Assembly: GCF_007751035.1 (NCBI RefSeq)
Contig: NZ_CP036433.1
Span: 7,607,001 to 7,671,000 of the forward strand
Length of the DNA: 64,000 bases
DNA from: Lignipirellula cremea
Lineage (GTDB): Bacteria > Planctomycetota > Planctomycetia > Pirellulales > Pirellulaceae
Direction: 5' to 3'
Position 1 is the stretch's first letter. Every line of letters starts with the position of its first letter. This document shows, in pieces, positions 30,649-44,951 of the stretch. Position numbers and translations under genes: made by a program. The notes beneath the pieces were generated by a model. The model searched no databases. It was not told where the DNA came from and worked only from the letters and a program-made list of their open reading frames with translations.

Positions 30649-32050
30649 TTAGTTTCGGTGCTTCTCCCAAAAGGCGTCCCATTGGTCCGGTTCGCTGAGG
30701 AACAGGGCGCGGAGGTGGCAGAGGGCGTCCGCGCCGTCGTTGCCCCAACGCATGCCGCTGCCGTTGAGGCGGTCGCCGACTACAGTCCGACAGGCCGACT
30801 CGATCGGACCGGAACCGATCTGCCAGCCGTTCTTCACGTAGCTCGGGTAGTCCATCTTGTGCTGATGATTTTCAAAATATTGAACCGTGACGCGATACAG
30901 TTCACGCGTCGCCGCGATCGGTCCGGGGTCAATCTCTTTCAGCTGGGCCAGCACGGCTGGGCCGCCTTCATGCTTGAGCATGGGAGCGTGACGATCCATC
31001 CAGCTCTGGCGTTCATGCTCGTCGGCGAAGAGCGCCTTCGCCAGTTCCACCAGGTACTCTTTCACGTGCCAGAAGTCGATGATGATCGTGGCCAGCGGAA
31101 AGTTGCGGCGAAGGAATTGCTCCATGCCGTTGCCGCCGTCCGAGAGGGCGATTTGCACCTCGGCCTTGTCCCAGCCGACCTGTCCGGCTTGGCGACGAAG
31201 CTGCAGGCCGAGTTCGTTTAGCTCGTAAAAACCCGACAAATAACGCGATTGATGCGGCTTCTTCTGTGTCTCATCATACTCGCTGTCGGGATTGTAAATC
31301 GACGCGACGTACGCCATGCGTCCCTCCACGCGACTCGCCTTGGGGCCTTGCCGGCGAACGCACTTCGCATCCAAACTGGCGTAAGCGCAGGTGCGGCCCA
31401 ACGCATCGCGTTGCCACTTCCACTCGCGGTCCGCGCCGAACTTGATTCGGTCCTCCAGCAGTTTGCCGACCCGGGCGCCGGCATCTTCGGTGACGCGTTC
31501 GACGCTCGACTCACTGACGCGCAGACCGGTCATCTTGAGCAGCATGCGTTTCGCCGAGACCGCGAAACTCGACACCGTTCCGGCCAGCGACGAAAGCTCC
31601 GCCACGGCGGGCGAAAGGCAGCGTTTCGACAGCCCCAGTTCCTGATCCCAAGGCGACAATCCTTCACTGCAAACGGCGCAGTGGTAATAGGGGCGACGCA
31701 CGCGAATGCCGCCTAATAGACAGGTGATCGTACGTCCTCGCCGTTCGACGAAGCGGGCGTCGTTCTGGCATTTCTGGCAGACGCAGCTAGCACCCTGGTA
31801 CCCCTTTTTTTGCCGCGGCGTCGACCGCGGCTTGTATCGCCTGGGCTCCGATTCGATGCACAATGTCGCGCGCTTCGAACTCTGTTTTGCCGAAGATTTG
31901 ACTGTCGGGTTTGGAGGCCAGCAGCACAGACAGTTCCACAAGATGCTTGTCCGCATTCGCCCGCAGATGTTGCAAAATAAGGTCCGCGCGTTCCTGCTGC
32001 TCAGGACTCAACTCCGCCGCCTTCGTCAGAGAGCCGTTCAACTTCGCCAT
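30649..32050 (-). pseudogene. ISKra4-family transposase, interrupted by a frame change
   Basis: The N-terminal part (32050 to a stop at 31787, about 87 residues) starts MAKLNGSLTKAAELSPEQ and ends EFEARDIVHRIGAQAIQ..AAAKKG. The remaining part continues in another frame from about 31810 to the stop at 30649, with KKGYQGASCVCQKCQNDARF (zinc-finger-like CxxC), VSESSVERVTEDAG, IQIALSDGGNGMEQF, IDFWHVKEYL and KNGWQIGSGPIESACR, the DDE-region landmarks of the family. Removing one A from the A7 run fuses the two into one sensible protein. It may be a true mutation, a slippage site that makes the full enzyme, or a sequencing slip. Confidence 0.85.
31805..31811 (-). other. A7-G4 slippery tract at the transposase frame change
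   Basis: Read on the minus strand the site is GCAAAAAAAGGGG. The upstream frame reads GCA-AAA-AAA-GGG-GTA and then a stop nine bases on; the downstream frame reads CAA-AAA-AAG-GGG-TAC. Going from the first to the second needs loss of one base or a +1 (or -2) shift. Confidence 0.75.
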
Positions 32051-41121: not shown

Positions 41122-42546
41122 CTACGCTTCCTGGCCGGTCAAGCCGCGCAGGACATCCCAGGCGCTGGCTTCGGTGTCGCTGTCTTTGGAAACCGACTTT
41201 TTGGGAGCTTCCGGCTTCTTTTTCGGAGCGGCTTCCGGCTTCTTCTTGGGGGCTTCGTCCGCTTTCTTCTCCTCCGCGCCGTCAGATTTTTTCTCCGCCG
41301 ACGGGGCGTGGGGCCGGTGGCCGAACGGGCCGAAATGATGGCCCGGGAAGTGACCCCGGAAATGTCCCCAACCGGGATGGCCAGGGCCGCCCGGATGGCC
41401 AGGGCCGTGCGGGTGACTCGGCGCGGCCGCTGCTCCCGGAGCCCCTTTGGAGGCCTGGAGCAGGTTCAGCACGCGATCCAGCTTCTGCTCGAGCTGTTCA
41501 ATGCGTCCCTTCAGATCCCCATCGGAAGCCGAACCGTGGTGGCTCGGACCATGAGAAGCCGACGGGCTATGATGCGCGGACGGGCCGTGACCATGATGCG
41601 AGAACGGGCCGTGACCATGATGCGAGAAAGGGCCGTGACCATGATGCGAGAACGGGCCATGACCATGGTGCGAGAACGGACCGTGGTGGCCGTGATGCGC
41701 GAACGGACCGTGGTGGCCGCGATGCGCGAACGGGCCATGGTGACCGTGATGCGAGAACGGGCCATGGTGGCCGTGATGCGAGAACGGGCCATGGTGGCCG
41801 TGATGCGCGAACGGACCGTGGTGGCCGTGATGCGCGAACGGGCCATGGTGGCCGCGATGCGCGAACGGGCCATGGTGGCCGCGATGCGCGAACGGGCCAT
41901 GGTGGCCGTGATGCGCGAACGGACCGTGGTGACCGCGGTGTGCGAATAACCCGAACGGACCGTGGTGGCGATGATGTCCATGGTGCGCGTGATGGCCATG
42001 ATGTCCATGGTGCGCGTGATGGCCATGATGGCCATGGTGCGCGTGATGGCCATGATGGCCATGGTGCGCGTGATGGCCATGATGGCCATGGTGCGCGTGA
42101 TGGCCATGATGGCCGTGCTCACTCTTGCCGTGGCCCTTGGCTTCGCAGGCAGCGCACTTGCCGTGGCCCTTGGCTTCGCAGGCAGCGCACTTGCCGTCTC
42201 CCTTGGCTTCACAGGCAGCGCATTTGCCGTCGCCCTTGGCTTCACAGGCAGCGCACTTGCCGTCTTGCTTGCATTCCTGTGACTTCTCGCCGACCGTTTT
42301 GTCGGTCTGTTTGCTTGAGGCTTTGTCTTTGGAGCCGTCTTTTTTCACTTCGAGAACTTTGGCGATGTCCGTCTTCTGAAAACTTTCGGTCGTCAAATCC
42401 GACGGCGAGGCCGCGGCGACTTCCCCTGGCGACTCGACGCTCGGCGGCTCGTCGATCGAATCCTCCGCGGCGGCGTACGCCGGCAAGCCGAGGGCGGCGA
42501 CTGCTGCGATACTCAGCAACCAACGCGGACTGCTAAAAAATTGCAT
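41122..42546 (-). CDS. Exported histidine-rich low-complexity protein with CAACEAKG repeats
   Basis: A 474-residue protein of striking composition. A signal peptide (WLLSIAAVAALGLPAYAAAEDS) is followed by about 70 mixed residues, four tandem 11-residue units GKCAACEAKG(D/H) near 95-140, then about 180 residues of HHGHHA and HHGPFA(H/R)(H/R)G repeats. A short coiled coil (LKGRIEQLEQKLDRVLNLLQ), a Gly/Pro/His part and a Lys/Glu/Ala-rich tail come next. The His and Cys repeats suggest binding of Cu, Zn or Ni outside the cytoplasm (inference). GGAG lies before the ATG. It is followed by a strong terminator and lies 283 bases downstream of the sigma-factor operon. No known family was recognised. 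Confidence 0.8.
   Translation of the reverse strand: MQFFSSPRWLLSIAAVAALGLPAYAAAEDSIDEPPSVESPGEVAAASPSDLTTESFQKTDIAKVLEVKKDGSKDKASSKQTDKTVGEKSQECKQDGKCAACEAKGDGKCAACEAKGDGKCAACEAKGHGKCAACEAKGHGKSEHGHHGHHAHHGHHGHHAHHGHHGHHAHHGHHGHHAHHGHHGHHAHHGHHRHHGPFGLFAHRGHHGPFAHHGHHGPFAHRGHHGPFAHRGHHGPFAHHGHHGPFAHHGHHGPFSHHGHHGPFSHHGHHGPFAHRGHHGPFAHHGHHGPFSHHGHGPFSHHGHGPFSHHGHGPFSHHGHGPSAHHSPSASHGPSHHGSASDGDLKGRIEQLEQKLDRVLNLLQASKGAPGAAAAPSHPHGPGHPGGPGHPGWGHFRGHFPGHHFGPFGHRPHAPSAEKKSDGAEEKKADEAPKKKPEAAPKKKPEAPKKSVSKDSDTEASAWDVLRGLTGQEA
41575..41950 (-). repeat. In-frame tandem repeats coding HHGPFAHRG units
   Basis: Units of about 18-27 bases of the ATGCGAGAACGGGCCATGGTGG type recur through the segment. 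They code His-Gly-Pro-Phe repeats and keep the reading frame, so copy number may change without breaking the protein. Confidence 0.8.
41965..42115 (-). repeat. In-frame tandem repeats coding HHGHHA units
   Basis: A unit near 27 bases (CATGATGGCCATGGTGCGCG type) repeats about five times with few changes. Near identity at DNA level, not only protein level, points to recent expansion. Confidence 0.8.
42126..42270 (-). repeat. 33-base tandem repeat coding CAACEAKG
   Basis: Four units of 33 bases (core TTGCCGT..CCCTTGGCTTC) code the Cys repeats of the His-rich protein; units differ at a few third positions and between GTGG and GTCG. Confidence 0.8.
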
Positions 42547-42829
42547 GTTGAAACTCCAAGTCCATAAGAGGGGGGGAACGACGGCAATCAGACGCTAGCA
42601 CGCGACCGGATCGCTCTCCATGAGTTTGAAGAGCCTGAATTAGCAGGAGATCCGTACTTGCTAGCGTTGCAGCCATGCGCAAGGCGGCCCGGGAATACAG
42701 ACCGCTCCCCTCATAAACCCCACAGACGACTCGAAGTTTTGCCGTTTTTTCCGTTTTTCCTGAAACAGACTGGCGCCGGCGGACCAGGCGGCCGACGACA
42801 TGCGCGGGCACGACGCCCGGTTCGCCGTC

Positions 42830-43558
42830 CTAGAACTCAAGGTCGTTTCCTTGGCCCAGCAGTTCGGTCTGGCGACGCTGGATGATCTCTTCGCGGGCAG
42901 CATTCCGCTTCTCGATCGCTTCGCCCAGCCTCTCCAGCTCGGCTCCCAGCGATTCCAGATTCAACTGGCGTCGTTTTTGCCGTACTTCAAAATGCCGCTC
43001 GATCGCCTGGCGCACTTCCGCTTCCAGCTTTTCCCTTTCCTTTCCCTCGGCGTTCCGGCAGCGTTCTGCCAGTTCCAGCGTGCGACGATTCAGCTCCGCA
43101 TCCTGCTCTTCCAGCTCCGCCATTTCCCGATCCTCAGGATAATCCCGAGACAGGCTCCCAGCTCCCGCTTCGTCTGCCCGTGGCGGCGGACCATGCGGAG
43201 GCGGACCATGCGGAGGCGGACCATGCGGAGGCGGACCATGCGGAGGCGGACCATGCGGAGGCGGACCATGATGCGGTGGTGGGCCGTGATGCGGTGGCGG
43301 ACCGTGCGGCGGCCGACCATGGGGCGGCGGGCCGCCGTGGGGTCCGTGCGGCGGCGGACCGCCGGGGGGATGGCCGGCGCGCGGAGGATCGCCGGGGGGA
43401 GCATCGTCGAATTCAAAACCGACCGCCTGGTCGCGGCGATGCTCGCGCACCCGGGCATCGGACCAGTCGTGATCGGGACCAGGACGGCCGCAACCGGACT
43501 GGCCAGCAAACAGGCAGACCAGCAGCAACACCGGCCCCAGTGGCAAAGGGCGCATCAT
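42830..43558 (-). CDS. Pro/His-rich predicted lipoprotein with C-terminal coiled coil
   Basis: A 242-residue protein beginning MMRPLPLGPVLLLVCLFAGQSGC, a lipoprotein-like signal with Cys at about 23, though the residues before Cys are not the ideal lipobox. The middle holds about fifteen PPHG/PPPHG repeats. The last 100 residues are a charged helix (LEEQDAELNRRTLELAERCRNAEGKEREKLEAEVRQAIERH). GGAGATTT precedes the double ATG. A longer frame upstream has no signal or domain and is rejected. It lies 91 bases after the putative anti-sigma gene and is probably in the same transcript. The make-up recalls periplasmic metal-sensing proteins (inference); no family was recognised. Confidence 0.75.
   Translation of the reverse strand: MMRPLPLGPVLLLVCLFAGQSGCGRPGPDHDWSDARVREHRRDQAVGFEFDDAPPGDPPRAGHPPGGPPPHGPHGGPPPHGRPPHGPPPHHGPPPHHGPPPHGPPPHGPPPHGPPPHGPPPHGPPPRADEAGAGSLSRDYPEDREMAELEEQDAELNRRTLELAERCRNAEGKEREKLEAEVRQAIERHFEVRQKRRQLNLESLGAELERLGEAIEKRNAAREEIIQRRQTELLGQGNDLEF
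43184..43270 (-). repeat. 15-base tandem repeat coding PPPHG
   Basis: Five nearly perfect copies of GCGGACCATGCGGAG, in frame in the Pro/His-rich lipoprotein gene. Confidence 0.85.
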
Positions 43559-44815: not shown

Positions 44816-44951
44816 GTCGAGACTGTTAACGGGGCGGGCCGCTCCTTATTGCAAAGGATTCCCGGCCGCACTCGATTTTCTGTCAAAAATCCGGCGGCGG
44901 GGCGTTCAGGCAAGGGATCCCGAACGGTCACTCCCGTCCCAGCCGCGACGC

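Follow-up and report, generated by a model that had tools for sequence, protein, structure and literature searches.

A histidine- and cysteine-rich gene lies downstream of an ECF sigma factor module

The window, the whole 64,000-nucleotide stretch of Lignipirellula cremea DNA that we analysed, carries four neighbouring genes in the same orientation. Gene 1 encodes an ECF sigma factor, gene 2 a putative membrane anti-sigma factor, gene 3 an exported protein with a C-terminal helical hairpin, and gene 4 an exported low-complexity protein rich in His and Cys. The positions of these genes and their features are listed in Table 1.

Table 1 Features of the locus and of the MNIO loci in the same genome.
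Feature	Position	Strand	Basis or remark
Predicted ECF promoter, TGCAAT...CGTT	44828..44853	−	16 nt separating GCAAT and CGTT; upstream of gene 1
Gene 1, ECF sigma factor, 177 aa	44282..44815	−	Pfam Sigma70_r2 and r4_2; NCBIfam sigma70-ECF above cut-off
Gene 2, putative membrane anti-sigma factor, 211 aa	43650..44285	−	Position; transmembrane stretch by inspection
Gene 3, exported protein	42830..43558	−	HGPPP-repeat linker, then C-terminal helical hairpin (CC domain)
Gene 4, His/Cys-rich low-complexity exported protein, 474 aa	41122..42546	−	
Gene 4, signal-peptide-like region, aa 1–26	42469..42546	−	By inspection
Gene 4, four GKCAACEAKG units, aa 96–138	42133..42261	−	One CxxC in each unit
Gene 4, HGHHGHHAH array, five units, aa 144–188	41983..42117	−	
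Gene 4, HGPF[A/S]H[H/R]GH array, aa 195–320	41587..41964	−	
Gene 4, short coil DGDLKGRIEQLEQKLDRVLNLLQAS, aa 342–366	41449..41523	−	Counterpart in gene 4 of relatives
MNIO locus L001	G000:C1:5799911-5803693		BufA2-like precursor, BufB-type MNIO, and HvfC-type partner adjoining
MNIO locus L002	G000:C1:5695925-5699692		MNIO flanked by two candidate-partner genes

The reading frame of gene 4 opens with an ATG that has a GGAG 7 nt upstream, and the codon-position GC of its non-repeat parts resembles that of the neighbouring genes. Therefore, the frame is supported. The product contains 100 His and 9 Cys, and its N-terminus, MQFFSSPRWLLSIAAVAALGLPAYAAAED, resembles a Sec signal peptide by eye. The GKCAACEAKG units start at residues 96, 107, 118, and 129, and residues 138–337 contain 89 His per 200 residues (44.5%), confirming the signal-peptide-like start, the four Cys units, and the nearly half-His segment described in an earlier note on this DNA. 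Of its two arrays of nine-residue units, HGHHGHHAH comes first and HGPF[A/S]H[H/R]GH second, and they have a common register, G-x-x G-x-x A/S-x-x. The protein also has a stretch of His, Pro, and Gly and a tail of Lys, Ala, and Glu.

The tandem repeats of gene 4 far exceed chance; Tandem Repeats Finder reports 27 bp × 14.4 (89% match), 27 bp × 5.7 (97%), and 33 bp × 4.3 (94%). Between units, pN/pS is 0/0.24 for the GKC core, 0/0.16 for the HHA array, and 0.044/0.345 for the ten HGPF units. The recent expansion that had been proposed from the near-identity of the DNA repeats fits the HHGHHA array, but not the ten HGPF units, which have diverged silently. The pN/pS values are a hint of selection and not a test of it, because independent changes are few.

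Genes 1–3 form a recurrent module

The start of gene 2 overlaps the stop of the sigma gene, and its product has one transmembrane stretch. It matches no family in Pfam or NCBIfam, and a single-sequence search finds two relatives among 100 family genomes, each adjoining a sigma gene. Gene 3 carries a lipobox-like LFAGQSGCG (by inspection). A model of its CC domain, built from seven sequences, is a two-helix hairpin with helices at 6–34 and 37–104 (pLDDT 89.7).

The CC domain has no convincing relative among the families and structures searched. Full-length gene 3 matches no Pfam family at E ≤ 1. No Pfam family matches more than two of the seven CC domain members, the best single match being 9.2e-4, and sensors of the CnrX, ZraP, or Spy type are not among 25 of the 33 Pfam families listed for the domain. 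The best match of its sequence profile in the PDB is an unrelated protein (E = 0.021). Foldseek returns no PDB match for the model at E ≤ 0.001, and none of the best 50 of 215 matches bears the name CnrX, ZraP, or Spy.

The CC profile matches 77 of 296 genomes of the order (E ≤ 0.001), 41 of 241 of the family (E ≤ 1e-10), and 36 of 294 of the phylum (E ≤ 1e-8). At 44 of 53 CC loci (the window and 52 others), a sigma gene scoring at least 100 bits lies upstream on the same strand. It is absent at seven loci (L055, L059, L073, L074, L081, L084, and L086), and L083 and L085 have only a weak sigma hit on the other strand or more than 2 kb away; at three of these nine (L055, L073, and L074), less than 1.1 kb of upstream sequence is available. 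Fifteen further CC loci of the phylum include 14 with a same-strand sigma hit, one of them weak (32 bits). Among the matches listed, L083 (G058) and L085 (G040) carry CC-domain genes in tandem, without the usual close upstream sigma gene.

CnrYXH of Cupriavidus metallidurans is an ECF sigma/anti-sigma operon with an exported accessory protein. The present module resembles CnrYXH-like operons in that a sigma factor, a membrane anti-sigma factor, and an exported third protein are encoded side by side, a conserved motif lies upstream of the sigma gene, and the exported protein is His-rich here. Unlike in CnrYXH, however, neither sequence nor fold searches link gene 3 to a metal sensor, its relatives are mostly not His-rich, and no metal efflux pump is recognised among the window proteins scanned. 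More broadly, Pfam recognises no metal gene among 17 window proteins, a subset of the window's reading frames; an ABC and an MFS transporter are among them, neither with an assigned substrate. Elsewhere in the window, a 435-residue reading frame (30649–31956) has no Pfam match at E ≤ 1e-5.

A conserved motif precedes the sigma gene

A spaced-word search with no preset motif over the upstream sequences of the 44 usable sigma genes finds GCAAT-N16-CGTT in 26 and GCAAT-N17-CGTT in 17; in four shuffled sequence sets, words of the same size peak at 4–5. With the spacing relaxed to 15–18 nt, the motif is present at 44 of 44 loci, the count being confined to CC loci with a usable sigma gene (200 shuffles: mean 0.44, maximum 2). 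GCAAT is preceded by T in 34 of these 44 copies and followed by AA, with 38 and 31 occurrences of the two A's. In the window, CGTT ends 12 nt ahead of the sigma ATG.

The motif is also found at all three named planctomycete loci examined outside the 44 (L130–L132). The named outside loci number six and come from a scan of genome contigs, none of them from the window's own genome; L128 duplicates the contig of L126, and L127 and L129 did not enter the count. Among 14 further phylum loci with a sigma gene, four have the motif (shuffle mean 0.055). It is missing from the other ten of these more distant loci and therefore is not phylum-wide.

Within its own genome, TGCAAT-N15..18-CGTT has 43 hits, compared with 14 for the reversed control. 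No clear further regulon target emerges from 30 of the 43 under a coarse rule (inside a reading frame or not, and a reading frame starting downstream), which labelled even the operon's own promoter as inside a reading frame. No GCAAT-N15..18-CGTT occurs between genes 3 and 4. A GCAAT-N14-CGTT overlapping the gene 4 start codon was rejected as a promoter on account of its position and spacing.

The fourth gene recurs in relatives with a different composition

Directly downstream of gene 3, a gene of the gene 4 layout is present in 7 of the 16 family genomes whose CC match is strong (E ≤ 1e-19), namely the window's own (G000), G031, G080, G075, G119, G126, and G007. The common layout consists of a signal peptide, low-complexity filler, and one short coil, and the window gene has it, its signal peptide being assigned by eye. 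Such a gene was not seen in the other nine (L058 by filter, eight by reading the list of reading frames), nor by a simple filter at any of 36 loci outside the family, of which L085 has only 436 bp of downstream sequence and the others 2.3 kb or more.

The filler is wholly different between genomes. The six counterparts have repeats of the G/P/R/D/E type with 0–18 His and 0–1 Cys, compared with the 100 His and 9 Cys of the window gene. Therefore, metal ligands are not required for the general function of gene 4. In G126, gene 4 (L117:2997-4076) is built of a tandem unit of the GFHGPFAPGKPPVE type, and the word HGPFA is common to it and the window array.

The main rival to a metal-binding reading is that gene 4 encodes structural filler, a surface or matrix polymer whose chemistry drifts freely and whose His and Cys have no dedicated metal role. 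The His enrichment could then be drift of low-complexity sequence. We hold this to be a serious possibility, if a tentative one. It agrees with the composition of the counterparts and with a tree of sigma and gene 3 (CC) sequences, in which the seven carriers of gene 4 form no group, the backbone being unresolved. In addition, gene 4 scores higher than the cut-off of the Pfam Collagen model (31.3 vs 27.2 bits). Collagen requires Gly at every third residue, whereas the longest Gly-x-x run of gene 4 is 4 triplets and, in the arrays, Ala or Ser takes the place of about every third Gly; the Collagen model also matches none of the six counterparts at E ≤ 0.01. These results speak against a collagen identity. 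All three repeat arrays, moreover, keep their residues even though silent sites vary, with few changes in all.

The drift of a free filler is also at odds with the neighbouring gene, since a single genome has two adjoining exported proteins, both from this module, that are rich in His, which independent drift does not predict. The gene 3 linker contains 16 His among 112 residues, and the next-highest count among the 53 loci is 8. As a fraction this is 14.3% when the window gene is trimmed to its MMRPL start and the other loci are taken at their longest frame; the 52 others average 1.5%, the next being 7.1% (2 of 28 residues) or, among linkers longer than 50 residues, 4.9%. With the window gene also taken at its longest frame, its linker has 7.6% His, still the highest of 53 (next 7.1%). 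Equal treatment of the starts thus weakens the argument from His excess in gene 3. Our overall assessment is unchanged, because the His count (16 vs 8) and gene 4 carry the argument.

Of 149 family genomes, 1 contains GKCAACEA, the window's own. The shorter GKCAACE occurs in 2 of 392 phylum genomes, the other bearer being a CxxC-rich protein of different layout. HHGHH[G/A]HH is present in 11 of 239 family genomes; the nine hits in the window's own genome all fall within gene 4, and the reading frames inspected in nine of the ten other genomes all have a different layout. The earlier note had held that absence of the repeats from close relatives would count against a metal-buffering product. 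That absence is seen in part, in the single occurrence of GKCAACEA and in the six counterparts, none of which is His/Cys-rich; the family searches turned up no second genome of the same genus. A whole-protein search of gene 4 in 60 relatives gives three matches including itself. The other two were rejected as low-complexity: a Gln/Gly-rich stretch in G020 and a 67-residue frame overlapping the tail of a GroEL gene in G006.

Two proteins of another genus of the family (L144:1246-1971 and L145:1045-1746) look exported and combine tandem Cys-pair units of the PCCEPAP type with HHGHH runs. They resemble gene 4 in the signal-peptide-like start and in tandem Cys units with HHGHH runs, but differ in the Cys unit and in layout, and no Pfam family matches L144 at E ≤ 0.01. 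They represent an independent, parallel case of Cys combined with His.

Other matches of gene 4 are explicable by composition, as is that to Collagen. PF05403, the Plasmodium histidine-rich proteins, matches weakly (17 bits, cut-off 45.8), and DUF4083 also gives a weak match. The Plasmodium proteins likewise have short His-rich tandem units, but gene 4 lies below the cut-off, its units differ, and it encodes an exported protein of bacterial origin that also contains Cys units and a coil. The resemblance is likely convergent.

Association of gene 4 with the module

Gene 4 might instead have no connection to the ECF module and be an independent metal binder, rich in His and Cys, that lies downstream by chance. 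In the window, genes 3 and 4 are separated by 283 bp; in the six counterparts, gene 4 starts no more than about 200 nt from gene 3. A weak terminator-like stem on the minus strand (42770–42787), 43 nt past the gene 3 stop, could limit read-through into gene 4. Co-transcription of genes 3 and 4 is uncertain because of the gap, the stem, and the lack of a motif between the genes, and the same features would suit a chance neighbour with no conserved promoter ahead of it.

A profile of the six counterpart coils gives the window protein a marginal E of 0.051, and among 627 background reading frames an unrelated coil-containing one of different layout (L070) scores higher; the other higher hits are copies of the training rows (L020 and L096) or the cut window gene (L017 and L093). 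In pairwise alignments, however, none of 300 composition-keeping shuffles reaches the score of the window coil against the coils of G031, G080, and G126, and its scores against G007, G119, and G075 are reached by 1, 2, and 11 of 300 shuffles. The same position, orientation, and layout are repeated in six other family genomes, which argues further against an unrelated gene. We consider a chance association improbable.

Relation to MNIO-modified precursors

The likeness of the GKC units to bufferin or HvfA precursors, which the earlier note had raised loosely, is not supported, and the corresponding reading, in which the GKC cysteines are modified in trans by a genomic MNIO and bind copper as bufferins and oxazolins do, is very improbable. 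The oxazolin family is marked by repeated EGKCG motifs (PMC12452194). Like Buf_EGKCG/oxazolin and BufA2 bufferins, gene 4 has a signal-peptide-like start, repeated Lys-Cys units, and suspected metal binding. Such precursors may be of considerable length, usually carry a Sec signal peptide, and are in some cases encoded by solitary genes (PMC12452194), all of which would accommodate gene 4.

Unlike these families, however, gene 4 lacks EGKCG, its units being [D/H]GKCAACEAKG. No NCBIfam Buf family matches it at E ≤ 0.5, a threshold above the level of about 0.1 beyond which HMMER filters drop most matches, and the BufA2 profile in particular gives no match at that threshold. BLASTP of gene 4 against the genome's own BufA2-like precursor stays at chance level (E = 1.5). 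Cys repeats are found in none of the six gene 4 counterparts.

It was correctly noted that the window holds no MNIO gene, but the genome carries two, 1.8–1.9 Mb away (at 5.80 and 5.70 Mb, the window being at 7.61–7.67 Mb), and both are adjoined by candidate partners of their own. At L001, the MNIO scores above its NCBIfam curated cut-off, and the BufA2-like precursor (E = 1.9e-4) and the HvfC-type partner (E = 1.6e-14) score under theirs. At L002, the MNIO is flanked by a 427-residue protein with a Cys/Gly-rich tail and by a small protein that weakly matches an NHLP-clan RiPP model. Modification of gene 4 by an MNIO in trans is unlikely.

A model for the module and its output

Gene 4 may well encode a fast-evolving exported output of an autoregulated ECF module that has taken a metal-binding form in this lineage; on the sequence evidence, we give this reading about an even chance. 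A metal role is plausible because the protein presents His and CxxC ligands outside the cytoplasm, its residues are kept where silent sites change, and its neighbour in the set is His-rich. Against it speak the 283-bp gap with its weak stem, the lack of a recognised metal gene among the 17 window proteins scanned, and the apparent lack of likeness between gene 3 and a metal sensor. What the sequences establish directly is the gene order, the conserved motif ahead of the sigma gene, the recurrence of the fourth gene's position and layout, and the enrichment in His and Cys.

According to this model, an envelope signal would free the sigma factor from the membrane anti-sigma factor. The freed sigma factor would transcribe its own operon from the predicted GCAAT/CGTT promoter, and read-through would extend into gene 4. 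The exported gene 4 protein would be largely disordered, with the short coil holding it in oligomers. Its clustered His and CxxC pairs would bind Zn, Cu, or Ni, and the protein would act as a metal buffer, either periplasmic or on the cell surface.

ECF sigma modules are already known as a kind, and a large reclassification of ECF sigma factors has reportedly been published. That work aside, in which the module may already be catalogued, our literature search finds no description of a module with this promoter and hairpin domain. We tentatively propose an ECF chassis whose promoter is fixed and whose exported products have their filler rewritten from genus to genus; here the two neighbouring outputs would have turned jointly into metal ligands, making a general envelope module a metal-buffering and perhaps metal-sensing one. 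The signalling parts would stay constant and the chemistry of the exported effector would be exchanged, an arrangement that possibly extends through much of one planctomycete order and partly beyond; we put this forward with similar caution.

The locus provides a concrete planctomycete ECF module comprising a predicted promoter, a sigma factor, a putative anti-sigma factor, and an exported hairpin domain that no Pfam or NCBIfam model matched convincingly in the searches made here. It also shows that a gene whose product is poor in metal ligands, or lacks them, in relatives can exist in a His/Cys-rich 'metal' form. If the His/Cys form does bind metal and is induced by it, the module would make a good comparative case for the origin of new exported functions through rewriting of low-complexity sequence under unchanged regulation.
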